From positions 1 to 47,518 of the forward strand of contig JAAYVC010000028.1 in NCBI GenBank assembly GCA_012517375.1: a DNA stretch of 47,518 nucleotides. The letters are read 5' to 3'. Source of the DNA: a bacterium. GTDB taxonomy: Bacteria; Hydrothermota; Tepidihabitantia; B3-TA06. Below, piece by piece: positions 26,931 through 37,914 of the stretch; the stretch's first letter is position 1; every line of letters begins with the position of its first letter. Both the position numbers and the translations under genes were made by a program. Below the pieces are notes generated by a model, which saw nothing but the letters and a program-made list of their open reading frames with translations, did no database searches and had not been told where the DNA came from.

Positions 26931-26958
26931 TTGACAGCGTTAATATTTATACTATTAT
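26931..26958 (+). promoter_or_regulatory. Strong promoter of the STAS/SpoIIAA-like array
   Basis: TTGACA at 26931-26936, a 16-nt spacer and TATTAT (5/6) at 26953-26958. It lies in the 118-nt gap after the membrane-protein gene and is the best promoter before the array, which then runs without another obvious promoter to 36855. Confidence 0.75.
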
Positions 26959-27010: not shown

Positions 27011-27259
27011 ATGAGATACAGGTTGTGGTTGTGGGACGAGCGGCGTAATAATAAGAGACTCCCTAACAGAGGTGGAGATGCCTCGGTATCTCTAATACGG
27101 TTTTTTTCATTAAAAAAAGGAAGTTGTAATCCAGGAAAAAATCATGTTAGCCGTCATGAGTTTTGTCTTGATGAAAAAGTGAATCACGACGAAATACTCA
27201 CCCCCAGAGGTCGGACATCTATAAAGAAAAACCCTGCAACGTTTGAAAGGAAAAGATGA
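27011..27259 (+). pseudogene. Degenerate array member or leader ORF
   Basis: An 82-codon frame with a good AGGAG (26998-27002) 8 nt upstream, ending in an ATGA overlap with the first intact array gene. Its first ten residues, MRYRLWLWDE, resemble the array N-terminus (MRYKVWYD at 28190). A second piece, RHEFCLDEKV near residue 48, resembles HEVWLDEKEG of the 33642 copy. The rest has no array features and no C-terminal signature. It may be a decayed copy, a fusion of two remnants, or a leader peptide. The region between promoter and first intact gene contains nothing else recognisable. Confidence 0.4.
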
Positions 27260-27603
27260 ACCACGAACTATTCTTTGATGAAGAAAATGACATGATAGTT
27301 TTGAGAGTAAGGGGCGATTTTGCAATGGACGACGCCGTCCGATGCTCCGAATTTATCGATAAGACCTTGAAGGAGAGAGGCTCCTTCAACGTTCTTGTGG
27401 ATCTCTCGGAAGCTACGCCAAGTCTTGATAAGGAGGTGCGAACGATGCTCAAAAAACAGTCGCAAGAGGATGCAGTAAAAAAGTTTGCGATGGTAGTCAC
27501 GCATCCTGCGCTGAGGATTATAGGCAAGATTGCGACTTCAAGCATGAGTAACTCAAAGATATTCAAGACCGAGGAGGAAGCTCTCCGCTGGCTGAAAGGA
27601 TAA
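27256..27603 (+). CDS. STAS/SpoIIAA-like domain protein, array copy 1
   Basis: First intact copy (115 aa) of a 25-member family. Layout: N-terminal strand pair NHELFFDEENDMIVLRVRG, helix, central strand ending VDLSEATPS, helix with EVRTML, strand AMVVTHPALRII, and the C-terminal signature IFKTEEEALRWLKG. This order matches the single-domain SpoIIAA-like (PF11964-type) fold, a STAS relative; cytoplasmic, no catalytic motif. A canonical STAS phospho-site (D-S-S-G) is absent. Adaptor or regulatory binding is inferred. It is closest by eye to copies 8 and 11. Confidence 0.75.
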   Translation: MNHELFFDEENDMIVLRVRGDFAMDDAVRCSEFIDKTLKERGSFNVLVDLSEATPSLDKEVRTMLKKQSQEDAVKKFAMVVTHPALRIIGKIATSSMSNSKIFKTEEEALRWLKG

Positions 27604-27609
27604 AATGAT

Positions 27610-27975
27610 ATGAAACCCATGATAGAACTAGATAAGCAACTCGGCGTAGTGAGAGCTAAAACTAAAGGATCATTCACGATGCAAGAACTCGATAAAAGCA
27701 TGGAAGAACTCAAGAAGCTCTTTTTGAATATGGATAAGAAGCTTCTTCTTGCAGACGTCAGAGAAAACGACAGGGTAATGGCGACGAAAGAGGAGAGGGT
27801 AAGAATGCGGGAGCTGTCAAAAGATTTGACGTGGGACAAGGCTGCGGTAGTTGGAGCTGATACGCTTGTACGCATGTCGGCTAAGATCGTTCTGGCGGCG
27901 ATAGGTCTGAGCAAGACAACCAGATTCTTCAAGACCGAGGATGAGGCGCTTCGCTGGCTGAAAGAGAAGCCGTGA
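27610..27975 (+). CDS. STAS/SpoIIAA-like domain protein, array copy 2
   Basis: A 121-aa copy with a divergent N-terminus (MKPMIELDKQLGVVRAKTKG). The central strand reads LADVRENDR, so the Ser after the Asp is Arg. The helix Arg is in EERVRMREL and the later motif is GADTLVRMSAKIV. It ends RFFKTEDEALRWLKEKP. It is 6 nt from copy 1. A 214-nt gap follows, beginning with the short frame MRYERES then stop (27976), possibly another relic start. Confidence 0.7.
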   Translation: MKPMIELDKQLGVVRAKTKGSFTMQELDKSMEELKKLFLNMDKKLLLADVRENDRVMATKEERVRMRELSKDLTWDKAAVVGADTLVRMSAKIVLAAIGLSKTTRFFKTEDEALRWLKEKP

Positions 27976-28189
27976 ATGAGATATGAAAGGGAATCTTAAG
28001 CTTGAAGGATAGTACGTGTTTCACGAAGCCTGCTGTTCTGAATTCTTTTCGACAGGTAGCGGATCTGAAATGAATATCCACGAACCGAAGGGGAGTGTGA
28101 GATTGCCGAATTCGATGAGCGCTTTGCGAGTCGATTGAGAAATAAAGGTACGGAATGCGCAGGAGTGCGGTTGAAAGAAGGAGAAAGAA

Positions 28190-28558
28190 ATGAGATACAA
28201 GGTTTGGTACGATGCCGCGAATCATCTTGTAAGAGCTGAGGTTCTTGAGTCTTTAACCAAGGAAGACGCGGGAGACATGATGATGAAGATAGAAGCGGAG
28301 CTTTTAAAAAATGGTACCCGGCTCGGAATCATGGACCTTTCAAATGCCGGTAGCATTAAAAAAGTCAGCAAGGAAACGCGAGAAGTGTATAAGGAACATG
28401 CTAAGAGATTATCGTTGGACCGAGCGGCCGTTATCGTGGATTCTCCGGTACTCAGGATGATTGCAAGGGTTGCCCTTACTGCGCTCGGGCAATCGGGCAC
28501 GGCGAAGTTCGTTAAATCTGAAACCGAGGCCCTTAAGTGGCTGAAATCGAAGAAATGA
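28190..28558 (+). CDS. STAS/SpoIIAA-like domain protein, array copy 3
   Basis: A 122-aa copy starting MRYKVWYDAANHLV, with AAGGAG 8-9 nt upstream. Key positions: MDLSNAGSIKKV, ETREVYKEHAKRL, SPVLRMIARVAL, and an altered ending KFVKSETEALKWLKSKK, where F-F-K is F-V-K. Copy 4 shares this ending and most of the central region, so the two look like a local duplicate pair. Confidence 0.75.
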   Translation: MRYKVWYDAANHLVRAEVLESLTKEDAGDMMMKIEAELLKNGTRLGIMDLSNAGSIKKVSKETREVYKEHAKRLSLDRAAVIVDSPVLRMIARVALTALGQSGTAKFVKSETEALKWLKSKK

Positions 28559-28641
28559 CCGATAAATCGGATGAGTATCCTAGAGAATGGTTGCATCTCG
28601 TTGATAAGAAAGATAGAGATAAAGAAAGCGGCAATAAATAA
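28555..28641 (+). other. Possible 28-codon coupled small ORF
   Basis: An ATG overlaps the stop of copy 3 (ATGA at 28555-28558) and opens a 28-codon frame of highly charged residues (MTDKSDEYPREWLHLVD, then KKDRDKESGNK). Coupling mimics the array joins, but the sequence carries no array motif. It may be chance or the remnant of a lost copy. Confidence 0.25.
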
Positions 28642-28652
28642 TCGTAAGCTTC

Positions 28653-28669
28653 CGGGACGGAAAGTCCCG
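28653..28669 (+). promoter_or_regulatory. Intercistronic hairpin before copy 4
   Basis: CGGGAC (28653-28658) pairs with GTCCCG (28664-28669) around the tetraloop-like GGAAA. The GGAG of copy 4 starts 5 nt later, so the hairpin could mark an mRNA processing or stability site or affect initiation. Confidence 0.45.
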
Positions 28670-28683
28670 ATATGGAGAATGAA

Positions 28684-29049
28684 ATGAAATACAAGGTATG
28701 GTTCGATAGTGAAAATCAGCTTGTGATGGCTAATGTTACGGCTGCGCTTGAAAAAGAGGAAGCGGAGGCATTGATGAACGGGATCAAGGAGATACTGAAA
28801 GAAAAAAAAGCAACCAAAGGGATTATGGATCTTTCAAACGCGGAGGCGTTTGAAAAGATAGGGAAGGAAGTGAGGGAGGTCTACAAGGAGTACGCAAGGA
28901 GTCTTGCGCTCGATTGCGCAGCAGTGATAGTCACCTCGCCGGTCATAAGAATGCTTGCAAGAGTCGTTCTCAGCTCACTGGGAATGACCATGACGGCAAA
29001 GTTCGTAAAATCATATGAAGAGGCCCTGGAATGGATAAAACGTCAATGA
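28684..29049 (+). CDS. STAS/SpoIIAA-like domain protein, array copy 4
   Basis: A 121-aa copy, MKYKVWFDSENQLV. ATG 28684 is preferred over 28672 because GGAG (28674-28677) is 6 nt upstream and the sequence then starts like its relatives. Features are GIMDLSNAEAFEKI, EVREVYKEYARSL, TSPVIRMLARVVL and KFVKSYEEALEWIKRQ. It pairs with copy 3. Confidence 0.75.
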   Translation: MKYKVWFDSENQLVMANVTAALEKEEAEALMNGIKEILKEKKATKGIMDLSNAEAFEKIGKEVREVYKEYARSLALDCAAVIVTSPVIRMLARVVLSSLGMTMTAKFVKSYEEALEWIKRQ

Positions 29050-29141
29050 TTATTGTGAACTTTCCAGGAAGCGTCTGCACTGAAAATCTCAAGTCATCGG
29101 GTGTGACTGCCGGATGTGAAGGATTTTAAAAAGGAAGCTGA

Positions 29142-29525
29142 ATGGCATACGAAACATTTTACGATGAAAAGATAGGTATGGTAAGGCTGAATCTCAAAGG
29201 TCAGTGGGGTTCGGGCAGGGAATTTGCCGAGGCGGTCTCCATGATGAACAGCTTGCTTGATGAGCGGGAAAAACGCATCGTTATCTGTGATTTATCTCAA
29301 GGCTCCTTCCAATCCTACACGAAGGAGTTCCGCCAGTCGGTAGCCCGGACAGCAAAAAACGTGGAAATCGAAAAAGCCGCAATAACGGGCGCTTCGCCCG
29401 TGCTCAGGATGATGGCAAAGATGCTCTTGGCCGCTGCAAGAACCTTAAACCCGGAGCTTCCGGAGGTCAGGTTCTTTAATCTGGAGGAGGAGGCTTTGGA
29501 ATGGCTTAAAGGAGAGGAGTCATAA
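29142..29525 (+). CDS. STAS/SpoIIAA-like domain protein, array copy 5
   Basis: A 127-aa copy, MAYETFYDEKIGMVRLNLKG. The central strand ends CDLSQGSFQSYTKEFRQSV. The later motif is ASPVLRMMAKMLL, and the loop before the signature is longer than usual (AARTLNPELPEVRFFNLEEE), as in copy 14. The final codons (AAAGGAGAGG) include the Shine-Dalgarno for copy 6. Confidence 0.75.
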   Translation: MAYETFYDEKIGMVRLNLKGQWGSGREFAEAVSMMNSLLDEREKRIVICDLSQGSFQSYTKEFRQSVARTAKNVEIEKAAITGASPVLRMMAKMLLAAARTLNPELPEVRFFNLEEEALEWLKGEES

Positions 29526-29884
29526 TGGAACACAAGACCTGCTTCAACGAAGACGCCAATGCGATGTGCGTGGATGTTATTGGCGAGTTCCAGTCGTCAG
29601 ACGTGGACTGCACGTTCGAGATACTCGATAAACAGTTCGAGGGCAAGGATTACTACAGATTGCTCATAGACCTAAGCCAGTCGAACGGCAACCTGTCTGC
29701 CGAGGCGCGCAGGCTCCTGAGCGAGAAGCTCAAGGCGAAGCGCTCTGCAAGGATAGCCTTCGTCATCACGAGACCGACGAGCAGGATGATAGCGCGAGTG
29801 GTGGTTGCCCTGTCGAAGAGCTCGCATGAAAAAGATTTTTTCAAGGATAAAGCCAGGGCTCTTGCCTGGTTGAAGCAGGAATGA
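29525..29884 (+). CDS. STAS/SpoIIAA-like domain protein, array copy 6
   Basis: A 119-aa copy starting MEHKTCFNEDANAMCVDVIG, richer in Cys than its relatives. Key sites: IDLSQSNGNLSAEARRLL, RPTSRMIARVVVAL, and DFFKDKARALAWLKQE, where the T-E-E-E of the signature is D-K-A-R. It overlaps copy 5 by one base (TAATG). Confidence 0.75.
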   Translation: MEHKTCFNEDANAMCVDVIGEFQSSDVDCTFEILDKQFEGKDYYRLLIDLSQSNGNLSAEARRLLSEKLKAKRSARIAFVITRPTSRMIARVVVALSKSSHEKDFFKDKARALAWLKQE

Positions 29885-29902
29885 TGAATCGAGCACTTAT
29901 AA

Positions 29903-29940
29903 CTTCAACCATGTGTTCGGAAAGCACTGAATGGTTGAAG
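29903..29940 (+). promoter_or_regulatory. Intercistronic hairpin before copy 7
   Basis: CTTCAACCAT (29903-29912) and ATGGTTGAAG (29931-29940) form a perfect 10-bp stem. An inner GTGT/GCAC stem lies in the 18-nt loop. The Shine-Dalgarno of copy 7 (AAGGAGG) begins within the last bases, so folding could hide it. A terminator is less likely because no T-run follows. Confidence 0.5.
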
Positions 29941-29950
29941 GAGGTGTCGT

Positions 29951-30337
29951 ATGAGCGACGCAGGTTCTTTTGAAGTCAGATACGACGAGAAGGCAGGAAT
30001 CCTTCGCGTCGACATAATGCATCTTGACTCTGCCCAAGATGTTCATTCAATGTGGTCGGATATTAAAAAGACGCTGGAAGACAAGACAGAGCGCAAGATA
30101 CTGGTCAACCTTTCCAGAAACAATCAGACCAGCATGAGCAGACAGGCTCGCAAGGCATTCAGCGAATACGAAGAATACCTTAAAACACTTGACAGGACAG
30201 CATTCGTCATTGAAAACCCTGTGGTCAGGATGCTCGTTAAAGCGACGCTTGCTGGTATAAGAGGAAGAAAGGACGAAGAGATATCGACCTTCAAGAAAGA
30301 GGAAGAAGCCCTTGGCTGGCTGAAAGGTGTGAAATGA
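29951..30337 (+). CDS. STAS/SpoIIAA-like domain protein, array copy 7
   Basis: A 128-aa copy with a short extra N-terminus (MSDAGSFEVRYDEKAGILRV). The central strand reads LVNLSRNNQTS, the only copy where Asn replaces the otherwise fixed Asp. The helix Arg is in RQARKAF and the later motif is NPVVRMLVKATL. It ends STFKKEEEALGWLKGVK. A strong AAGGAGG precedes it. It overlaps copy 8 (ATGA). Confidence 0.75.
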   Translation: MSDAGSFEVRYDEKAGILRVDIMHLDSAQDVHSMWSDIKKTLEDKTERKILVNLSRNNQTSMSRQARKAFSEYEEYLKTLDRTAFVIENPVVRMLVKATLAGIRGRKDEEISTFKKEEEALGWLKGVK

Positions 30338-30693
30338 AGCATGAAATCAGTTTCGACGAGAGAAACGACATCATAGTCATGAGGGTAAAAGGCGAATTCA
30401 ACCTCCAGGATGCTATGGAAACTGTGGATAAGATGGATGAGCTTGGAAAAGACAAAAAAACTATCCTGGTGATGGCTGATATGAGAGAAGCAGCGCCCAA
30501 GCTCGACAAGGATGTTCGAAAGTTGATGCAGGATCTTTCGAAGCGAATGAAGATGCAGAAATTCGCTATGATAGTTACTAACCCTGCTATCAGGATAGTC
30601 GGTAAGATAGTGATTGCTACCATGAGAAACGCCCGAGGTTCAGCTTTTTTCAGAACTGAAGAGGAAGCCATTCACTGGTTGAAAGGAGATTAA
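30334..30693 (+). CDS. STAS/SpoIIAA-like domain protein, array copy 8
   Basis: A 119-aa copy, MKHEISFDERNDIIVMRVKG. The Asp is followed by Arg two residues on (MADMREAAPKLDKDVRKLM), as in copy 11, with which it shares LDKDVRKLMQDL and AMIVTNPAIRIVGKIVIATM. It ends AFFRTEEEAIHWLKGD. The last codons supply AAAGGAG for copy 9. Confidence 0.75.
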   Translation: MKHEISFDERNDIIVMRVKGEFNLQDAMETVDKMDELGKDKKTILVMADMREAAPKLDKDVRKLMQDLSKRMKMQKFAMIVTNPAIRIVGKIVIATMRNARGSAFFRTEEEAIHWLKGD

Positions 30694-31088
30694 TGATGAG
30701 AGAAATAATTTCAGAAACCGGTCAGGTAAGACACAAGGTTTTTTTCGATGAGGAAAAAGGCGTCGCAGTGATTATCCATTACGACGTAATCTACGCGGAT
30801 GATGCCCGGGAAATGATAGACGTGCTCGGGACCCTCCTTGAAGGCAAATCACCCAAATTGCTTCTGGACGATTCATCAAGAGTTTCCGCCTCCAGGATGG
30901 ATAAAGAGACGCGAAGGATATTCATGGGTGCAGGGGAAAAAGTTGGATTGGACCGCGTAGCCGTGTTTGGGGCAGACTCCATGACAAGAATGATGTCGAA
31001 GATTATTTTTACCATTGCAGGCAAGATTGATTCCACGAAATACTTCAAAACCGAGGAAGAAGCATTATCGTGGTTGAAAGGAAAATAA
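30693..31088 (+). CDS. STAS/SpoIIAA-like domain protein, array copy 9
   Basis: The longest array copy at 131 aa, with ten extra N-terminal residues (MMREIISETGQ) before RHKVFFDEEKGVAVIIHY. Features: LLDDSSRVSASRMDKETRRIF, the nearest the family comes to a STAS-like D-S-S, then GADSMTRMMSKIIF and KYFKTEEEALSWLKGK. The second ATG at 30696 fits the ribosome-binding site slightly better. Confidence 0.75.
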   Translation: MMREIISETGQVRHKVFFDEEKGVAVIIHYDVIYADDAREMIDVLGTLLEGKSPKLLLDDSSRVSASRMDKETRRIFMGAGEKVGLDRVAVFGADSMTRMMSKIIFTIAGKIDSTKYFKTEEEALSWLKGK

Positions 31089-31092
31089 AATA

Positions 31093-31470
31093 ATGGATAA
31101 ATTCATCGTTTCTTTTGACGATGAGAACGACATCCTTTATCTTAAGATACTGGGGTTGATGGACGACGAAGCACTGCGCGAACTGATTCCCCGCTATCAG
31201 AAACTGCTTGAGGGCAGAAAGCGCCGTTATGTTCTGGTTGATATGTCGGAAAGTCCGCAGTTCGGCGCTAGTATTATGACCAGAGAGATGAGGGACACAT
31301 ACAGGGAAATGATCAATTTAATGGAAGCCGATAAATCGGCAATATTCGGAGCAACACCTGCATTACGCATGGTCGCAAGGATTGCTATTGCCGTTACCGG
31401 AAAGTCAGAGATTGCGCATTTTTTTAAGACAAAGGAAGAAGCCCTGGCATGGCTGAAAGGAGAAAGATAA
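31093..31470 (+). CDS. STAS/SpoIIAA-like domain protein, array copy 10
   Basis: A 125-aa copy, MDKFIVSFDDENDILYLKIL. The central strand VLVDMSESPQFGAS is followed by MTREMRDTYREM. The later motif is ATPALRMVARIAIA. It ends AHFFKTKEEALAWLKGER. The L-L-E-G-R-K-R-R-Y-V-L-V block matches copies 12, 14, 19 and 25. Confidence 0.75.
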   Translation: MDKFIVSFDDENDILYLKILGLMDDEALRELIPRYQKLLEGRKRRYVLVDMSESPQFGASIMTREMRDTYREMINLMEADKSAIFGATPALRMVARIAIAVTGKSEIAHFFKTKEEALAWLKGER

Positions 31471-31474
31471 GAAA

Positions 31475-31837
31475 ATGAAGCACGAGCTATACCTTGACAA
31501 AGAAAGCGGCATAATTTTTTTCAGGGCAAGGGGGATTTTCAATTACGAGGACGGTGTCGAAGCCGTCGAAAAGATGGAAAACCTTGTAAAAGGTCTTGAA
31601 GATGTCCGGGCCCTTATTGATACGAGAGAGATGCCTCCAAAACTCGAAAAGGATGTACGCAGGTTGATGCAGGACCTGCCGAAGAGATTCAGGATTTCGA
31701 GGATGGCAATGATTGTCACAAATCCGGCCCTGCGTATGATCAGTAAGATAGTGGTTGCCACGATGGGTAAAGACTTCAAGGCGGGTTTTTTCAAGACCGA
31801 AGAGGAATCGTTGGAATGGCTGAAGCAAGAAAAATGA
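31475..31837 (+). CDS. STAS/SpoIIAA-like domain protein, array copy 11
   Basis: A 120-aa copy, MKHELYLDKESGIIFFRARG. The central site is IDTREMPPKLEKDVRRLMQD, and AMIVTNPALRMISKIVVATM follows. It ends GFFKTEEESLEWLKQEK. It is closest to copy 8 and next to copy 1 by eye. Its stop is inside an ATGA overlap with copy 12. Confidence 0.75.
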   Translation: MKHELYLDKESGIIFFRARGIFNYEDGVEAVEKMENLVKGLEDVRALIDTREMPPKLEKDVRRLMQDLPKRFRISRMAMIVTNPALRMISKIVVATMGKDFKAGFFKTEEESLEWLKQEK

Positions 31838-32199
31838 ACTACGAGATGTGGTTTGACGAAAAAAACGGCGTCCTGTACGTAAAGACGCTTGCCATGCTCG
31901 AAAGAGCCGATGTAGAAGATATTATCCCCGAAGTGGCGGAAATGTTAGCTGGCAAGGAGCACCGTTATATCCTCGGAGATCTTGCCCAAAACCCGTCCGG
32001 TCTTTTGACGAAGGACGCGCGCACGGCTTTTAAGGAAAATGCAGAAAATCTTCAAGTGGATAAGATAGCCATTATCGGAGCCAACCCTTCCATCCGCATG
32101 ATTGCAAAGATTGCCTTGACCATAATGGGTAAATCCGATATCGCCAAATTCTTCAAGACCGAAGAGGAAGCCCTAGTCTGGCTCAAGGGAGCAAAGTGA
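31834..32199 (+). CDS. STAS/SpoIIAA-like domain protein, array copy 12
   Basis: A 121-aa copy, MNYEMWFDEKNGVLYVKTLA. ATG 31834 is chosen since it starts like its relatives and forms the ATGA join; the frame is open to 31816. It is nearly the same protein as copy 19: both contain ILGDL[AS]QNPSGLL, KIAIIGANPSIRMIAKIALT and KFFKTE[ED]EAL, so they are a recent duplicate pair 2.5 kb apart. Confidence 0.78.
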   Translation: MNYEMWFDEKNGVLYVKTLAMLERADVEDIIPEVAEMLAGKEHRYILGDLAQNPSGLLTKDARTAFKENAENLQVDKIAIIGANPSIRMIAKIALTIMGKSDIAKFFKTEEEALVWLKGAK

Positions 32200-32324
32200 C
32201 ACCCGAGTTCGGCTACGACGAGGTCAACAATATCGTGCGGATACGCTTCATCGGGGAGTTGAACGTCGAAAAATACGCCTCACTTAAGAATTTCATCAAC
32301 TCCCTTCCCCGGAGAAAAGGATGA
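32196..32324 (+). pseudogene. Array copy 13, N-terminal half (split gene)
   Basis: From GTG 32196, which overlaps the copy 12 stop as GTGA, 42 codons encode the usual N-terminal half (TPEFGYDEVNNIVRIRFIGE, ending SLPRRKG) and stop at TGA 32322-32324. The other half continues in a different frame from an ATG at 32321. Together they make about 124 residues, the normal family length, so a single frameshift is the simplest reading. Confidence 0.65.
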
Positions 32325-32566
32325 GCTATCTTGTGGACGTATCAAGGCTTGAGGGTTCTCTGCGGAGCGGGGAAACAAAAGACGCTGTCGCCGGCAAACC
32401 GGAACTCATTAAAGGAGGCCTTATCCCGATAACGGGCACTTCGGCAATAACCCGAATGCTCGCCAAGACCATTGCCGCGACAATGAGAAAACTCAAGGAT
32501 ACTGATTTTTTTAAATCCGAAGATGAAGCCGTCAAATGGCTTAAGGAGGAGCAAAATGATTCCTGA
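32321..32566 (+). CDS. Array copy 13, C-terminal half (split gene)
   Basis: The 81-aa piece starts at ATG 32321 in an ATGA overlap with the stop of the N-terminal half. It carries the central strand (MSYLVDVSRLEG), then SAITRMLAKTIAATM, and the C-terminal signature DFFKSEDEAVKWLKEEQ. The region after the Asp is aberrant: the helix Arg is Lys (ETKDAV). It may be translated by re-initiation as a second subunit, or be a decaying gene. The end overlaps copy 14 by 11 nt and its codons provide AAGGAGG. Confidence 0.6.
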   Translation: MSYLVDVSRLEGSLRSGETKDAVAGKPELIKGGLIPITGTSAITRMLAKTIAATMRKLKDTDFFKSEDEAVKWLKEEQNDS

Positions 32567-32927
32567 TATGTGGTTCGACGAGAAAAACGAAGCGTTGCAT
32601 CTCAGTTTTACCGAGGTCTGGGACGAGAATGACGTCCCCGAGTTGTTTAAGCGCATAAGGGCGCATTTTGAAGGCAGGAAAGAACGCAACATCGTAGGCG
32701 ATTTGTCGCATGCTGCACCTCAATCGTACAGCAGACAAATGAGGAAGATGGTAGCCGAAGAGGCTACAGCGCTTAGCCTCGACAAGGTCGCCATCCTGGG
32801 CGCTAATAACGTTCTTCGCATGATGGCGAAGATACTTTTGGCAGTAATAGGCAATAAATGGTCAGCGGAGACGAAGTTCTTCGATAGCGAGGCCGATGCC
32901 TTGGCCTGGATAAAAGGAGATAAGTGA
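32556..32927 (+). CDS. STAS/SpoIIAA-like domain protein, array copy 14
   Basis: A 123-aa copy, MIPDMWFDEKNEALHLSFTE. AAGGAGG (32543-32549) supports ATG 32556; the frame is open to 32523. Features: VGDLSHAAPQSYSRQMRKMV, ILGANNVLRMMAKILL, and a longer loop before KFFDSEADALAWIKGDK. It groups with the orphan copies 25 and 26 (W-F-D-E and D-V-P-E-near-start patterns). Confidence 0.75.
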   Translation: MIPDMWFDEKNEALHLSFTEVWDENDVPELFKRIRAHFEGRKERNIVGDLSHAAPQSYSRQMRKMVAEEATALSLDKVAILGANNVLRMMAKILLAVIGNKWSAETKFFDSEADALAWIKGDK

Positions 32928-33286
32928 AACACAAACTTTACTACGACGAAGAAAACAAGGTACTGGTGCTCGAAATAGCGGGTGAGTATACGTACGAGGA
33001 CGCAAAGGAAACGGTTCAGATTACCCGGGACTCCTACGAAGAAAAATCCCCATACCCTCTGCTTGTCGATTTAACAAATACATCAAACAATATCGGCAGG
33101 GATGCCAGAAAGTACCTTCAGGATGAAGTGGGAAGACTCGGTATTTCGAGAATGGCTCTTGTAGTTTCAAATCCTGTTATCCGTATGACGGCAAAGATAC
33201 TTGCATCGGCTTCTGGCAAGACTAATGAAAGCGGATTCTTTAAGACAAGAGACGAAGCGCTAGCCTGGCTGAAAGGAGAGAAATGA
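32924..33286 (+). CDS. STAS/SpoIIAA-like domain protein, array copy 15
   Basis: A 120-aa copy with a GTG start (KHKLYYDEENKVLVLEIAG) overlapping the copy 14 stop as GTGA. VDLTNTSNNIGRDARKYL and SNPVIRMTAKILAS are the key sites. Its 3' end from about 33232 is almost base-for-base the same as that of copy 18 (G-F-F-K-T-R-D-E-A-L-A-W-L-K-G-E-K), suggesting recent duplication or gene conversion. Confidence 0.77.
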   Translation: MKHKLYYDEENKVLVLEIAGEYTYEDAKETVQITRDSYEEKSPYPLLVDLTNTSNNIGRDARKYLQDEVGRLGISRMALVVSNPVIRMTAKILASASGKTNESGFFKTRDEALAWLKGEK

Positions 33287-33645
33287 AGCACAAGATAGCG
33301 TATGATGAGGAGGAAGGGATACTTCGGATTCAGTATATAGGCGAGATTATCCCTGATGAGTACAGACAGACCGCCGAAGAGGTGCTGAAGATGCCCGAAG
33401 AAAACCTCAAGCGCATACTGGTCGACATATCACAGACAGTCACCCCTATGTGGAATCGCGAGACCAGGGAGATGCTGGCTAAATCCACTCCCACTATCGA
33501 AGGATCAAGGGTGGCTGTAATAGGGGCATCGGCGGCCATAAGGATCATCTCAAAAGCTTTTGTTCATATAGGGAAAACGCAGTCTCAGACGCGCTTCTTC
33601 AAGACAGAGGAAGAAGCGGTCGCGTGGCTGAAGGGCGAAGGATGA
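33283..33645 (+). CDS. STAS/SpoIIAA-like domain protein, array copy 16
   Basis: A 120-aa copy, MKHKIAYDEEEGILRIQYIG. It has a different second strand (GEIIPDEYRQTAEEV), VDISQTVTPMWNRETREML, IGASAAIRIISKAFVHIG and RFFKTEEEAVAWLKGEG. Most related to copy 17 in the first third (I-x-x-E/D-Y). ATGA joins at both ends. Confidence 0.75.
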   Translation: MKHKIAYDEEEGILRIQYIGEIIPDEYRQTAEEVLKMPEENLKRILVDISQTVTPMWNRETREMLAKSTPTIEGSRVAVIGASAAIRIISKAFVHIGKTQSQTRFFKTEEEAVAWLKGEG

Positions 33646-34010
33646 AGCACGAGGTCTGGCTCGATGAGAAGGAGGGAGTTCTTTTCGTCCGCTACGTCGG
33701 CGACATAACTGTCGAGGATTACAGCGAGGTCAGCGACCGCGTCCTCGAGTTTACTCCCGAACAGAGAATGCTGACCTTCGTTGATATGTCCCAGGCGAAG
33801 GTTGCAAAACTTGACCGCAAGAGCCGTGCGGCGATTGACAAAAGGGTTCAATCCCTTCTGCATGATAATGCGAGAGCGGCCGTCCTTATCACCTCTCCGG
33901 TGATACGCATGATGACCAAGATATTTCTCGGCACTGTAAAGCAGAAGGTCGAGACGCGAATCTTCGCAGACCAGGAAGAAGCCCTTGTTTGGCTGAAAGG
34001 AGAGAAATGA
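33642..34010 (+). CDS. STAS/SpoIIAA-like domain protein, array copy 17
   Basis: A 122-aa copy, MKHEVWLDEKEGVLFVRYVG. Features: FVDMSQAKVAKLDRKSRAAI, TSPVIRMMTKIFLG, and an ending that departs from the signature (RIFADQEEALVWLKGEK). ATG 33642 gives the ATGA overlap with copy 16; an open frame to 33624 is ignored. Its final CTGAAAGGAGAGAAATGA holds the Shine-Dalgarno and start of copy 18. Confidence 0.75.
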   Translation: MKHEVWLDEKEGVLFVRYVGDITVEDYSEVSDRVLEFTPEQRMLTFVDMSQAKVAKLDRKSRAAIDKRVQSLLHDNARAAVLITSPVIRMMTKIFLGTVKQKVETRIFADQEEALVWLKGEK

Positions 34011-34369
34011 AGCACAAGCTTTACTACGACGAAGAAAACAAGCTGGTAGTGTTGGAAGTGGAGGACGAATTCACGCTTGAAGAAGCGAAGGAAACCATGA
34101 AGCTGATGCGTGATTCCTTCGCCGACAAGGCGCCTTATTCGTTCCTGCTGGATTTGGAAAAATTATCTTCCGATCTCGACAGGGATACAAGAAGGCTGCT
34201 TCAGACCGAGGCTGGAAACGTGGGCATAGCGCGGATGGCAATGGTGGTTACGAGTCCGATGACGCGGATGACGGCGAAGATAGTTTCGTCGGTCATAGGC
34301 AAGAGAAACGAGACCGGATTCTTTAAGACAAGAGACGAAGCGCTCGCCTGGCTGAAAGGAGAGAAATGA
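34007..34369 (+). CDS. STAS/SpoIIAA-like domain protein, array copy 18
   Basis: A 120-aa copy, MKHKLYYDEENKLVVLEVED, the twin of copy 15. The central strand LLDLEKLSSDLDRDTRRLL replaces the Ser with Glu. TSPMTRMTAKIVSSV and GFFKTRDEALAWLKGEK follow. N-terminal and C-terminal thirds match copy 15 better than the middle does, which is what partial gene conversion would leave. Confidence 0.77.
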   Translation: MKHKLYYDEENKLVVLEVEDEFTLEEAKETMKLMRDSFADKAPYSFLLDLEKLSSDLDRDTRRLLQTEAGNVGIARMAMVVTSPMTRMTAKIVSSVIGKRNETGFFKTRDEALAWLKGEK

Positions 34370-34731
34370 ACTACGAGATGCGGTTTGACGAGAAGCGAGG
34401 CGTACTGTACGTCAAAACCCTTGCCATGCTCGAAAAAGCCGATGTCGACGAGATTCTGCCTAAAGTGGCGGAGTGTTTTGAAGGCAAGGAACACCGATAT
34501 ATCCTCGGCGACCTTTCTCAAAACCCTTCCGGACTCCTCTCGAAGGATGCCCGCAACGCCTTCAAGGAGAACGCCAAATATCTCGATGTCGAAAAGATAG
34601 CCATTATCGGGGCCAACCCCTCCATCCGCATGATTGCAAAGATAGCGTTGACGATAATGGGGTCGTCCAATATCGCCAAATTCTTCAAGACCGAGGATGA
34701 AGCGCTAGCCTGGCTGAAAGAAGAGAAATGA
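34366..34731 (+). CDS. STAS/SpoIIAA-like domain protein, array copy 19
   Basis: A 121-aa copy, MNYEMRFDEKRGVLYVKTLA, the twin of copy 12 (roughly four of five residues the same by eye). GDLSQNPSGLLSKDARNAF and GANPSIRMIAKIALTIMG are shared. It ends KFFKTEDEALAWLKEEK; the K-E-E-K ending weakens the embedded Shine-Dalgarno to AAAGAAG. Confidence 0.78.
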   Translation: MNYEMRFDEKRGVLYVKTLAMLEKADVDEILPKVAECFEGKEHRYILGDLSQNPSGLLSKDARNAFKENAKYLDVEKIAIIGANPSIRMIAKIALTIMGSSNIAKFFKTEDEALAWLKEEK

Positions 34732-35081
34732 ATCAGCAAGTAAACCTCGATTCAAACAAAAATCTCATTGTACAACTCACAGGAGATCTGACTCCTGAGG
34801 ATGTCGAATCTACCACTGAGAGGATGCTCGATCTGTTGAAAACAGTAAACAAGGTGCACGTTCTTATGGATGTCAGAGATCTGAAGAGAGTACCTCCCAA
34901 GGCGCGAGAGGCGATGGTGAAAAAGCCCTTGCCCGAGAGCGAAAAGATAGCAGTAGTCGGCGCAAGCGCAATGGTCAAAGTCATGGGAACTCTGGTATTG
35001 AAAGTAATGCCCAATGTAAAGGCGTCTCGGTTTTTTGAAAACGAAGCGGATGCTCTGATTTGGCTTAATGAAGAGGAATAG
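34728..35081 (+). CDS. STAS/SpoIIAA-like domain protein, array copy 20
   Basis: A 117-aa copy that opens a divergent subgroup (copies 20-23). MNQQVNLDSNKNLIVQLTGD, then LMDVRDLKRVPPKAREAM with a Pro-Pro before the Arg. The later basic position is Lys (ASAMVKVMGTLVLKVMP). It ends RFFENEADALIWLNEEE, so K-T is lost from the signature. Confidence 0.72.
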   Translation: MNQQVNLDSNKNLIVQLTGDLTPEDVESTTERMLDLLKTVNKVHVLMDVRDLKRVPPKAREAMVKKPLPESEKIAVVGASAMVKVMGTLVLKVMPNVKASRFFENEADALIWLNEEE

Positions 35082-35090
35082 GGGCTGGCT

Positions 35091-35450
35091 GTGAACCACG
35101 AACTGACATTCGAGCCGCCGAACCTTCTGGTCATGAGGCTTAAGGGCGAATGGAAGCCGGAAGACGTTCTTTATTTGAACGACAGAGCGATGGAGCTTGC
35201 AGGCGATTTGAGAGAGGTTACGTTTTTACTGGACGGCACGGAACTGGAATCTATTCCGCCTAAAACAAGAGAGTATCTCGTAAAATACCGTACGCCTTTC
35301 ACCTATCTTAAGATGGCTCTTTTAACAAAACATGCCAGGATGAAGGTGCTGGGTATGCTCATCCTCAAGATGCTGCCTGCTATAAAGAAGTCGAGATACT
35401 TTGAAGACGAAGCCCAGGCGCGCGCGTGGCTTGGCGAAGTAAAAGAATAA
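35091..35450 (+). CDS. STAS/SpoIIAA-like domain protein, array copy 21
   Basis: A 119-aa copy with a GTG start, NHELTFEPPNLLVMRLKGEW. LLDGTELESIPPKTREYL carries the Asp and Arg. The later helix reads HARMKVLGMLILKMLP, with Lys for Arg. It ends RYFEDEAQARAWLGEVKE. Shares much with copy 22, including P-F-T-Y-L-K-M-A. Confidence 0.72.
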   Translation: MNHELTFEPPNLLVMRLKGEWKPEDVLYLNDRAMELAGDLREVTFLLDGTELESIPPKTREYLVKYRTPFTYLKMALLTKHARMKVLGMLILKMLPAIKKSRYFEDEAQARAWLGEVKE

Positions 35451-35462
35451 AAGGAGCGAACC

Positions 35463-35816
35463 GTGAAACAGGAGATGTCATTCGAGAAGCCTAATCTTCT
35501 CATTATGAGGGTGCGCGGCAAGTGGACTAGGGATGAGTTGTTCGAGATGAACGAACTTGCGATGAAGCTAGTCGGCGATCTTAGAGAAATCAATTATCTT
35601 GCAGACGTCTCCGAGCTCGCCGAAGTCCCGCCTGAAACAAGGGAGGCGCTCATCAAACACAGGATGCCGTTTACATACCTCAAGATGGCTTTCTTTGGAG
35701 CGTCGAAAAGACTCAAGGTCCTCGGCGGCTTGATACTCAAGATGCTGCCGACCGTGAAGAAATCCAAGTTCTTCGATACGGAGGAGCAGGCCCGGGCGTG
35801 GCTCCTAAATGAATAA
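35463..35816 (+). CDS. STAS/SpoIIAA-like domain protein, array copy 22
   Basis: A 117-aa copy with a GTG start 6 nt after AAGGAG (KQEMSFEKPNLLIMRVRGKW). LADVSELAEVPPETREAL, MPFTYLKMAFFGASKRLK and LGGLILKMLPTVKKSKFF mark it as the sister of copy 21. The signature is KFFDTEEQARAWLLNE. Confidence 0.72.
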   Translation: MKQEMSFEKPNLLIMRVRGKWTRDELFEMNELAMKLVGDLREINYLADVSELAEVPPETREALIKHRMPFTYLKMAFFGASKRLKVLGGLILKMLPTVKKSKFFDTEEQARAWLLNE

Positions 35817-35828
35817 CAGGAGTAGATC

Positions 35829-36179
35829 ATGAAAGAGATAATCACCTTTGAACCTCCCGATACCTTAGTTATATACTTACGCGTCAAACCGCCTGCTGAA
35901 GATATAAAAGATATGTTCGTAAAATGGGCTGAGTACATAAAACCCGAACAGAAGTGTAAAGTGATGGTAGACGCCTCAACCCTCGAAGATCTCCTGCCCA
36001 AGACTCGTGAAGCCTTGCGTGATGGAGGTGCCAAATTCCGTATTTCCAGATTGGCGGTTTTCGGCGCTTCAACAAAGATGCGCGTTATGGGCGGGTTAAT
36101 AATCAAGATGCTGCCGTTTGTCGATCATTCGACGTTCGTGAAAACCGAAGAAGAAGCCCGCGAATGGCTGGCTAAATAA
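35829..36179 (+). CDS. STAS/SpoIIAA-like domain protein, array copy 23
   Basis: A 116-aa copy, MKEIITFEPPDTLVIYLRVK, the last before the RsbR-like gene. MVDASTLEDLLPKTREAL and FGASTKMRVMGGLIIKMLP keep both basic residues. It ends TFVKTEEEAREWLAK. Start has AGGAG upstream with 11 nt to the next base set; the 22-nt gap to the RsbR-like gene holds GAAAGGAA. Confidence 0.72.
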   Translation: MKEIITFEPPDTLVIYLRVKPPAEDIKDMFVKWAEYIKPEQKCKVMVDASTLEDLLPKTREALRDGGAKFRISRLAVFGASTKMRVMGGLIIKMLPFVDHSTFVKTEEEAREWLAK

Positions 36180-36201
36180 AAATTAGAAAGGAATAGCTGA
36201 A

Positions 36202-36855
36202 ATGAGCCCGGGGAAAAAAATAGAGATACAAGCCGAAAGGGTCGAACGGATGATTGGAGTTCTTGCCGCCCTCACGACTGGCGACTACGAAGTGGCATTC
36301 GATGTAGACGAAAAAGCCGAGGATGAATTCACTCAGGTAGAGTACTCGATTAATTTCCTTATAGAGCAGCTTGCATACGAGCGAGGCGAAAACGAGCAAA
36401 AGCAGCAGGCTCTCGAAGAGCAGCTTGGTCTTGTTAAACAGCAGCAGCTTGCGATACTCGAGCTTTCCACGCCCAACATCAAGGTGTGGGATGGCGTGCT
36501 GGTTATTCCCATCATAGGCACGCTCGATACGAGGCGCTCCCAGCGCCTTACGGAAGAGCTGTTGACAAAACTCGGAACGACCCAGTCAAGGGTGGCGATA
36601 ATAGACATCACGGGCGTACCCACCGTGGATTCAGCCGTAGCCAACCACATTCTTAAAACGGTCTCGGCGGTAGAACTCCTGGGCGCCAAGTGCGTTATAA
36701 CAGGCATTCGTCCCGAAGTTGCGCAGACCATCGTTCACCTGGGCGTCGATCTTTCATCGGTGGAAACACTGTCCAATCTCGCTGAAGGCTTGAAATGGAC
36801 GCTTGCTCATCTCAACCTGGAAATAAAAAACAAAAGCGCCAGGGATTCGAGATAA
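36202..36855 (+). CDS. RsbR-type stressosome STAS protein
   Basis: The 217-aa product has an N-terminal HAMP-like/coiled-coil segment (ERVERMIGVLAALTTGDYEV, then an E/Q-rich helix to about 90) and a full STAS domain. AILELSTPNIKVWDGVLVIP and IIGTLDTRRSQRLTEELL open it. The two kinase-target positions of RsbR are conserved in type: Ser in GVPTVDSAVANHIL and Thr in GIRPEVAQTIVHLGVD. In Bacillus, RsbR and RsbS form stressosomes that sequester RsbT. No RsbS or RsbT gene is in the window. It follows copy 23 and shares its transcript. Confidence 0.85.
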   Translation: MSPGKKIEIQAERVERMIGVLAALTTGDYEVAFDVDEKAEDEFTQVEYSINFLIEQLAYERGENEQKQQALEEQLGLVKQQQLAILELSTPNIKVWDGVLVIPIIGTLDTRRSQRLTEELLTKLGTTQSRVAIIDITGVPTVDSAVANHILKTVSAVELLGAKCVITGIRPEVAQTIVHLGVDLSSVETLSNLAEGLKWTLAHLNLEIKNKSARDSR

Positions 36856-36884
36856 CCGTACCAGTGGAGGATGGTCGCATTCCA

Positions 36885-36902
36885 GTCTCTTTTTATAGAG
36901 AC
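36885..36902 (+). terminator. Weak terminator-like hairpin after the RsbR-like gene
   Basis: GTCTCT (36885-36890) and AGAGAC (36897-36902) pair around TTTTAT. The following GTGTAAGTTGTTTATTGTTT is T-rich but not a clean run. It may end the array transcript before the next promoter. Confidence 0.4.
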
Positions 36903-36977
36903 GTGTAAGTTGTTTATTGTTTAAATAAAGCTATACGCTTATGGATAAGTTTATCTTAGCTTTTATAATACGAAGGG

Positions 36978-37005
36978 TTGTAATCAGAAAAAAAATAGCT
37001 ATAAT
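36978..37005 (+). promoter_or_regulatory. Promoter for orphan copy 24
   Basis: TTGTAA at 36978-36983, a 16-nt spacer and a perfect TATAAT at 37000-37005 in an AT-rich stretch. A second TATAAT at 36964-36969 lacks a good -35. The gene starts at 37042 with AAAGGAG. Confidence 0.55.
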
Positions 37006-37041
37006 AACTATTGGATAAACGGATTTCTAAAGGAGAGCGTA

Positions 37042-37407
37042 ATGATTCCTAAAACCTGGTTTGACGAAGAGAACAAGGTCTTAAGGATCAGGTTTTTTGA
37101 ACAATGGACTGAGGATGATATCCCTGAGTTCTTTTCTCTAATAAATCGCTTGCTTGAAGGCAGGAAGAAGCGATACGTTCTGGTCGACTTGTCTGACGCG
37201 GCGCCGCAGCATTACAGCAAGGAATTCAGAAGGGTTTTTGCCGAAAATATGGGCTTGCTTAGTTTTCAAAAAGCGGCCGTTCTCGGCGCGAACCCTGCGC
37301 TTAGAATAATGGCAGGAGTGCTCCTTAATATAATGAAAGGAATTAAGATATTCGAGATCCGTTACTTCAGTAATACATTCGACGCCCTTGAATGGCTTAA
37401 AAAATAA
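37042..37407 (+). CDS. STAS/SpoIIAA-like domain protein, orphan copy 24
   Basis: A 121-aa copy with its own promoter, MIPKTWFDEENKVLRIRFFE, most like copy 14. VDLSDAAPQHYSKEFRRVF keeps the Asp and Arg. The later motif is GANPALRIMAGVLLNIM, and the ending RYFSNTFDALEWLKK has lost the acidic run of the signature. Separate control suggests a role distinct from the co-transcribed copies. Confidence 0.75.
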   Translation: MIPKTWFDEENKVLRIRFFEQWTEDDIPEFFSLINRLLEGRKKRYVLVDLSDAAPQHYSKEFRRVFAENMGLLSFQKAAVLGANPALRIMAGVLLNIMKGIKIFEIRYFSNTFDALEWLKK

Positions 37408-37437
37408 TCTCCTTTAATTCTTAAGACCCGCCCGTTG

Positions 37438-37465
37438 TTGACATCGTAGTATTACGGAGTATATT
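37438..37465 (+). promoter_or_regulatory. Promoter for orphan copy 25
   Basis: TTGACA at 37438-37443, a 16-nt spacer and TATATT (5/6) at 37460-37465. A leader of about 50 nt precedes the ATG at 37525 and contains a small GACC/GGTC hairpin. Confidence 0.7.
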
Positions 37466-37524
37466 ATTATATAGTATGGACCGTAGGGTCATTGGTTAAT
37501 CGTTAATCTTCTCTGGAGTCAGGC

Positions 37525-37914
37525 ATGAAACATGAAGTATGGTTCGATAAGGAACACAATGTCCTGCGGGAGAAGTTTCTAGGAGGATTCACCGAGGAAG
37601 ATGTTCCCGAGTATCTTTCCCGGATGAGAGCGGTATACAACAAAAGCGGCGACCAGTGCCGCGTTATTGTCGATTTGTCCCAGGCTTCACAGCCTTTCTA
37701 CAACAAAAGAACGCGCGAGCTCTTGATACAAGGCTCGGCAAAGCAGAGATACGTTGAGGAAAGAGTCGCGATGGTCAACGCCAAGCCCGACATAAGGATG
37801 CTCATAAAGGTTCTTGTCGCCGGAATGAAGCACAAGGGAAAGGATATAGAGGCGCGGTTCTTCGACTCCGAGGATGAGGCGCTCAACTGGTTAAATAATA
37901 ATAACGGACACTAA
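37525..37914 (+). CDS. STAS/SpoIIAA-like domain protein, orphan copy 25
   Basis: A 129-aa copy, the last in the region, MKHEVWFDKEHNVLREKFLG. It has a longer central segment (YNKSGDQCRVIVDLSQASQP), TRELLIQGSAKQRYVEERVA, AKPDIRMLIKVLVAGM and RFFDSEDEALNWLNNNNGH, so the tail differs from W-L-K. GGAG is 8-9 nt upstream. A convergent hairpin follows at 37915. Confidence 0.75.
   Translation: MKHEVWFDKEHNVLREKFLGGFTEEDVPEYLSRMRAVYNKSGDQCRVIVDLSQASQPFYNKRTRELLIQGSAKQRYVEERVAMVNAKPDIRMLIKVLVAGMKHKGKDIEARFFDSEDEALNWLNNNNGH

Follow-up and report, generated by a model that had tools for sequence, protein, structure and literature searches.

The window analyzed here, a stretch of 47,518 nucleotides (nt; contig JAAYVC010000028.1 of assembly GCA_012517375.1), contains an array of 25 SpoIIAA-like units, 24 intact and one split, all on the forward strand between positions 27256 and 37914. 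A gene for the stressosome sensor RsbR divides the array into 23 upstream and 2 downstream copies (Table 1). A profile derived from the array matched 25/25 copies, and the PF11964 profile found 34 matching places in the genome of the window. In a Pfam scan of nine copies, all nine exceeded the curated cut-off of PF11964 or DUF7793, and eight that of PF11964. The preliminary description of this DNA, made from its letters, had proposed 25 co-oriented members of one family in this region, and the profile searches agreed with it.

The AlphaFold model of copy 19 showed a predicted SpoIIAA-like α/β fold (scores in Table 1), and its best Foldseek matches included SpoIIAA, RsbS, and 2q3l, consistent with the SpoIIAA-like/STAS fold previously assigned from the family. 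The Asp closing the third strand was kept in every copy except copy 7 (Asn), and the Arg in the following helix in every copy except the split one (Lys), as had been noticed before. Asp49, Arg63, and Arg88 were conserved among the copies while the remaining residues varied, and these three would form a candidate common contact or ligand site. Profile comparison related the copies to 3bl4 (1.7e-12) and to the Shewanella PF11964/DUF3478 proteins 2ook and 2q3l (2.6e-7 for 2q3l); the predicted fold was the same as that of 2ook and 2q3l (Foldseek), and the phosphorylatable Ser is often replaced by an acidic residue both in these solved proteins and in the copies. In solved relatives (2q3l), the hydrophobic cavity is large and the protein switches between open and closed states (PMC2954212), both of which would suit a ligand-controlled input. 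Unlike 2ook, 2q3l, and 3bl4, which are described singly and with no partner assigned, the proteins studied here are encoded in arrays and beside a gene with a HAMP-like domain. Among Rosetta-stone fusions of SpoIIAA-like proteins, none contained HAMP, and the only real-looking ones were with a flavin adenine dinucleotide (FAD)-binding monooxygenase (L088:2581-4101), a Ser/Thr protein kinase (L097:2481-4184), and one DUF1440; long frames around PF11964 matches in high-GC genomes mostly looked spurious.

The STAS domain of the window RsbR was a true relative of Listeria RsbR and carried both phosphorylation positions (Ser in VDS and Thr in AQT), and the protein formed a long branch in the RsbR tree. 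The link between single-domain adaptors and an RsbR-like protein, suggested earlier, was therefore one to a true stressosome sensor. The genome of the window falls in candidate division WOR-3/Stahlbacteria, and the named relatives of the array were assemblies of candidate division WOR-3/Candidatus Stahlbacteria. A gene order of SpoIIAA-like(n)-RsbR-RsbS-RsbT-(HATPase/PP2C)-SpoIIAA-like recurred within the family of genomes to which the array belongs. At the 13 RsbS-RsbT loci of this family with a readable upstream side, a SpoIIAA-like gene, or a SpoIIAA-like gene followed by RsbR, lay immediately upstream in 13/13 (two of the 13 had no RsbR), and RsbS was found in 8/8 genomes of the family versus 3/139 other genomes of the phylum. 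In contrast to the family loci, three WOR-3 RsbR-RsbS-RsbT loci outside it had neither the HAMP-like N-domain nor SpoIIAA-like genes. RsbS and RsbT genes were absent beside the window RsbR and in the window; the genome carries them elsewhere, on C95 and C87 (contigs). The array either lost these neighbors or never had them, and we infer that the RsbS and RsbT encoded there serve the window RsbR. Copies 20-23 belonged to a subclade of 17 copies from three genomes (C4-type), and 17/17 of these adjoined three RsbRs of a single RsbR clade (support 100/100).

These components corresponded to those of the stressosome (RsbR-RsbS-RsbT with an RsbX-like phosphatase): an RsbR STAS domain with both phosphorylation positions, an RsbS with VDS, an RsbT-like HATPase, and a PP2C. 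The system differed from known stressosomes in that the RsbR N-domain was soluble and HAMP-like rather than a globin-type or LOV sensor, 1 to ~34 SpoIIAA-like genes lay upstream, and no sigma factor, RsbW, or RsbV gene adjoined the window array. Each RsbR paralogue of Bacillus subtilis has its own N-domain fused to STAS. According to one account (PMC9765535), the diversity of stressosome input in B. subtilis is spread over the paralogues RsbRA-RD and YtvA, resembling the array; on the other hand, the diversity here seems to reside in small stand-alone proteins, and RsbRs are few. The operon order was the same as that of known stressosome modules (PMC9237108).

LuxE and LuxC genes adjoined SpoIIAA-like-RsbR loci at L022:2640-8529, L026:7047-12038, and L051:11859-14459 (the Pfam check covered L022). 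The SpoIIAA-like copies beside them formed a separate subclade, and the corresponding RsbRs had similar N-domains, yet no clade of these was resolved in the RsbR tree. Acyl-protein synthetase (LuxE) and acyl-CoA reductase (LuxC) as neighbors hint at an acyl signal.

The N-domain of RsbR matched, in profile-profile comparison, the N-terminal HAMP domains of kinases encoded immediately 3' of SpoIIAA-like genes in distant organisms (probability 97.1%, E 7.7e-11); Pfam HAMP exceeded its cut-off in five such kinases, and the model of a related RsbR showed a helix-connector-helix at the N-terminus. A SpoIIAA-like gene followed by a HAMP-like HisKA kinase was found in Thermoplasmata, Methanosarcina, Bacteroidota, Dehalococcoidia, Aminicenantes, and Chitinivibrionales. 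The same arrangement, with four consecutive SpoIIAA-like genes, was present in one distantly related genome of the window's own phylum. The downstream kinases of Chitinivibrionales and of one unclassified bacterium had the HAMP-like domain at an internal position. For DUF7793 genes of Bacteroidota, the partner was often a HAMP-like-(PAS)-AraC regulator (L065-L071, L081, and L082, with a HAMP-like histidine kinase at L071). In the gene neighborhoods, which the preliminary description had proposed to survey, the constant partner across phyla was a HAMP-like domain rather than a Ser kinase or phosphatase. By a frame-level neighbor count over 821 kb, 45/47 HAMP-like domains started ≤700 nt 3' of a SpoIIAA-like/DUF7793 gene (median, 69 nt), a count that is partly circular because the loci were mostly chosen for their SpoIIAA-like gene and the HAMP profiles were partly built from the neighbors; of the two exceptions, one domain was internal to the next gene and the other lay where its locus was cut off. 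A reverse search from the HAMP-like domain in 294 genomes gave four matches, 4/4 with a SpoIIAA-like gene upstream, only two of which were new. The arrays of the sister genus (G006 and G007) also contained free-standing HAMP-like open reading frames (ORFs) of 76-85 residues, resembling RsbR N-domains without STAS (Table 1). Searches of the accessible literature returned no description of the SpoIIAA-like/HAMP pair, of such an array, or of DUF7793.

Relatives of the array were searched using a six-copy alignment as the query. Among 147 genomes of the phylum, PF11964 occurred in the 8 of the array's family plus a single one outside it. The arrays of the sister genus comprised ~34, 20, 14, and 11 copies, with many broken members among them, and the third genus of the family had 1-3 copies above the threshold. 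Since the longest tandem run in 932 genomes of three other phyla was three among the matches listed, long arrays look particular to the array's family in this sample. No relative was found in the viral contigs searched. In a tree of 149 copies, built from few columns and with many weak forks, members were not grouped by array; for 19 of 24 window copies, a copy from another genus was nearer than every other copy in the array, with identities up to 86%. Nonsynonymous differences (pN) were far below synonymous ones (pS) in pairwise copy comparisons, indicating purifying selection, and 0/23 neighbor pairs were conserved in G007. These results show a repertoire that is old, maintained, and shuffled between arrays. 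Recent tandem duplication was rejected by the tree and the pairwise identities. An assembly or repeat-collapse artefact, against which the preliminary description had cautioned, was also rejected from the wide divergence of the copies and their orthologues in independent assemblies.

We therefore propose, with a probability of roughly 0.6, that the array is the input repertoire of one stressosome, its SpoIIAA-like products serving as detachable subunits that feed input into the HAMP-like domain. Since SpoIIAA-like adaptors lie beside HAMP-type sensors in several bacterial and archaeal phyla, the row probably represents interchangeable inputs to one stress-response hub; and because the HAMP-like receiver is common to three kinds of output and mostly lacks a sensor, the SpoIIAA-like proteins appear to bring the signal. 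Each array gene would encode a soluble SpoIIAA-like protein (STAS/CRAL-TRIO fold), and the receivers would be proteins with a soluble HAMP-like domain, mostly with no sensor of their own in front; in the WOR-3 family, the receiver would be the HAMP-like N-terminus of RsbR. Binding of one or the other SpoIIAA-like protein, probably governed by its ligand or its conformation, would move the helices of the HAMP-like domain, and this would alter the phosphorylation of RsbR and RsbS by RsbT. Old, divergent paralogues in reshuffled arrays would allow one hub to answer many inputs, and the earlier idea of specificity spread over paralogues is plausible on these grounds. Physical binding, the direction of signaling, and ligand sensing by the SpoIIAA-like proteins are what we infer here. 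A broader proposal, made tentatively and at somewhat short of even odds, is that SpoIIAA-like proteins and soluble HAMP domains constitute a widespread two-protein switch of bacteria and archaea, wired to kinases, transcription factors, and stressosomes, and that in the WOR-3 family it has expanded into shuffled arrays, which would sense in a combinatorial manner ligands that may be acyl or otherwise hydrophobic.

Besides the limits of the two counts given above, several observations weigh against the input-subunit proposal. Pfam HAMP made no call on the WOR-3 RsbR itself, and many PF11964 proteins elsewhere had no HAMP-like neighbor (26 such outside loci were listed). The AlphaFold read-through model of an adjacent pair had good domains and a pTM (predicted template modeling score) of 0.66, a value that did not establish an interface. 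At L049:8116-10847 and L050:7402-10133, an RsbS-RsbT-PP2C operon was flanked by SpoIIAA-like genes on both sides and RsbR was absent. The co-segregation of C4-type copies with one RsbR clade could also arise from linkage alone.

At the residue aligned with Ser58 of SpoIIAA (start of helix 2; site placed by alignment and PMC2954212), Ser/Thr was found in 44/149 copies (30%), Asp/Glu in 62/149, and Pro, Gly, or Asn in the rest. Since the acceptor position was not conserved, Ser phosphorylation is unlikely as a general mode, and the partner switching suggested in the preliminary description was not borne out in this form. In the classical scheme, an RsbT/RsbW-like HATPase would phosphorylate the SpoIIAA-like proteins, as anti-anti-sigma-type antagonists, on a Ser, and the PP2C of the operon would remove the phosphate; we consider this unlikely, in spite of the proximity of the copy 19 model to SpoIIAA and RsbS in the PDB, the presence of RsbT-like kinases and HATPase-PP2C fusions in the same operons, and a diverged SpoIIAA-like gene after the PP2C gene at several loci. 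The copies share the overall fold of the SpoIIAA/RsbV antagonists but not their conserved phosphorylatable Ser, and no cognate anti-sigma kinase or sigma factor was seen in the window or the fetched array loci. Furthermore, the conserved partner elsewhere was HAMP-like, its output being of the histidine-kinase or AraC type, and no adjoining Ser kinase was seen.

A similarly unlikely explanation is that SpoIIAA-like proteins are scaffold or decoy subunits, which would replace RsbR or RsbS in the STAS core of the stressosome and so determine its makeup or sequester RsbT. Their STAS-like fold and the two RsbR-less loci described above are compatible with this role; however, at loci lacking stressosome genes, these proteins are paired with kinases or AraC regulators that contain HAMP, and stressosome loci without the HAMP-like domain also lack SpoIIAA-like genes. 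The repeated linkage to signaling proteins of three output kinds makes it quite improbable that the proteins are CRAL-TRIO-like carriers of hydrophobic ligands with a metabolic rather than a signaling role. The cavity and open/closed switch of the solved relatives, LuxE and LuxC at the three loci, and the one FAD-monooxygenase fusion agree with such carriers, but ligand binding could also belong to input subunits. The broken copies in the large G007 and G006 arrays might suggest a polyimmunity-like immunity or defense array, in which copies arise and die out rapidly. This is extremely unlikely because there was no PADLOC match, no toxin gene was noticed next to the window array or any fetched array, and the copies are old, shared across genera, and under purifying selection.

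Within the array, ORF-finder starts lying inside the preceding gene were corrected, with likely starts at 31834, 32556, 33642, and 34007. Copy 13 consists of two ORFs joined via an ATGA overlap; it could be a gene with a frameshift or encode a protein in two pieces. At abutting genes, the final codons often hold the ribosome-binding site of the next gene (e.g., CTG AAA GGA GAG AAA TGA), so that part of the conserved WLKGEK ending may double as a translation signal. Twenty-three copies had been placed behind one promoter: 23 do lie upstream of RsbR, but a single promoter is only plausible because 23 promoter-like matches were observed versus 12.2 ± 3.2 in shuffled sequences and the array has four internal gaps of 66-214 nt. 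An ORF directly 5' of copy 1 (27011-27259) starts with MRYRLWLWDERRN, like the start of an array copy, and is possibly a decayed remnant; a direct search of it gave no convincing match. Dead-copy remnants sought in the gaps of the window yielded nothing convincing apart from split copy 13. An integron cassette array, with attC recombination sites between the genes, does not apply because most junctions overlap or are <23 nt, leaving no space for attC.

Table 1. Features of the SpoIIAA-like array in the window, and free-standing HAMP-like ORFs of related arrays (pLDDT, predicted local distance difference test).
Feature	Position	Strand	Evidence
Promoter-like site TTGACA-16-TATTAT	26931-26958	+	11/12 consensus match, no evidence of function
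Copy 1, SpoIIAA-like	27256-27603	+	PF11964 2.5e-9
Copy 2	27610-27975	+	PF11964 genome search and array profile
Copy 3	28190-28558	+	DUF7793 3.1e-7
Copy 4 (start perhaps 28684)	28672-29049	+	Array profile
Copy 5	29142-29525	+	PF11964 genome search and array profile
Copy 6	29525-29884	+	PF11964 genome search and array profile
Copy 7 (Asn replaces conserved Asp)	29951-30337	+	DUF7793 4.8e-7
Copy 8	30334-30693	+	Array profile; 79% identity to G007 copy
Copy 9	30693-31088	+	Array profile
Copy 10	31093-31470	+	PF11964 genome search and array profile
Copy 11	31475-31837	+	PF11964 genome search and array profile
Copy 12 (ATGA overlap start)	31834-32199	+	Pfam scan and array profile
Copy 13, N-terminal half	32196-32324	+	tblastn to intact copies 3e-10; sequence
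Copy 13, C-terminal half	32321-32566	+	Array profile
Copy 14	32556-32927	+	PF11964 genome search and array profile
Copy 15	32924-33286	+	DUF7793 6.9e-15
Copy 16	33283-33645	+	DUF7793 1e-11
Copy 17	33642-34010	+	86% identity to G007 copy
Copy 18	34007-34369	+	PF11964 genome search and array profile
Copy 19 (modeled)	34366-34731	+	pLDDT 93.8, pTM 0.87
Copy 20, first of RsbR-proximal subtype (C4-type)	34728-35081	+	PF11964 genome search and tree
Copy 21, C4-type	35091-35450	+	Pfam scan and tree
Copy 22, C4-type	35463-35816	+	PF11964 genome search and tree
Copy 23, C4-type, immediately 5' of RsbR	35829-36179	+	PF11964 genome search and tree
RsbR, HAMP-like N-terminus (~residues 10-60) and STAS	36202-36855	+	PF01740 4.3e-17; Listeria RsbR 5.3e-30
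Copy 24	37042-37407	+	PF11964 2.2e-8
Copy 25 (own promoter-like site 37438-37465)	37525-37914	+	PF11964 1.6e-6
Free-standing HAMP-like ORF	L011:14595-14825		
Free-standing HAMP-like ORF	L011:16715-16951		
Free-standing HAMP-like ORF	L013:6073-6312		
Free-standing HAMP-like ORF	L013:11001-11258		
Free-standing HAMP-like ORF	L015:3788-4021		
Free-standing HAMP-like ORF	L029:12315-12551		

In this stressosome system, the input layer seems to have left the sensor and passed to small individual proteins, which makes it possible to count, exchange, and test them one at a time. The occurrence of the same pair in archaea as well as in several phyla of bacteria would provide PF11964/DUF7793 with a first testable function, and the pairing with SpoIIAA-like proteins would explain where cytosolic HAMP proteins without a sensor of their own receive their input.

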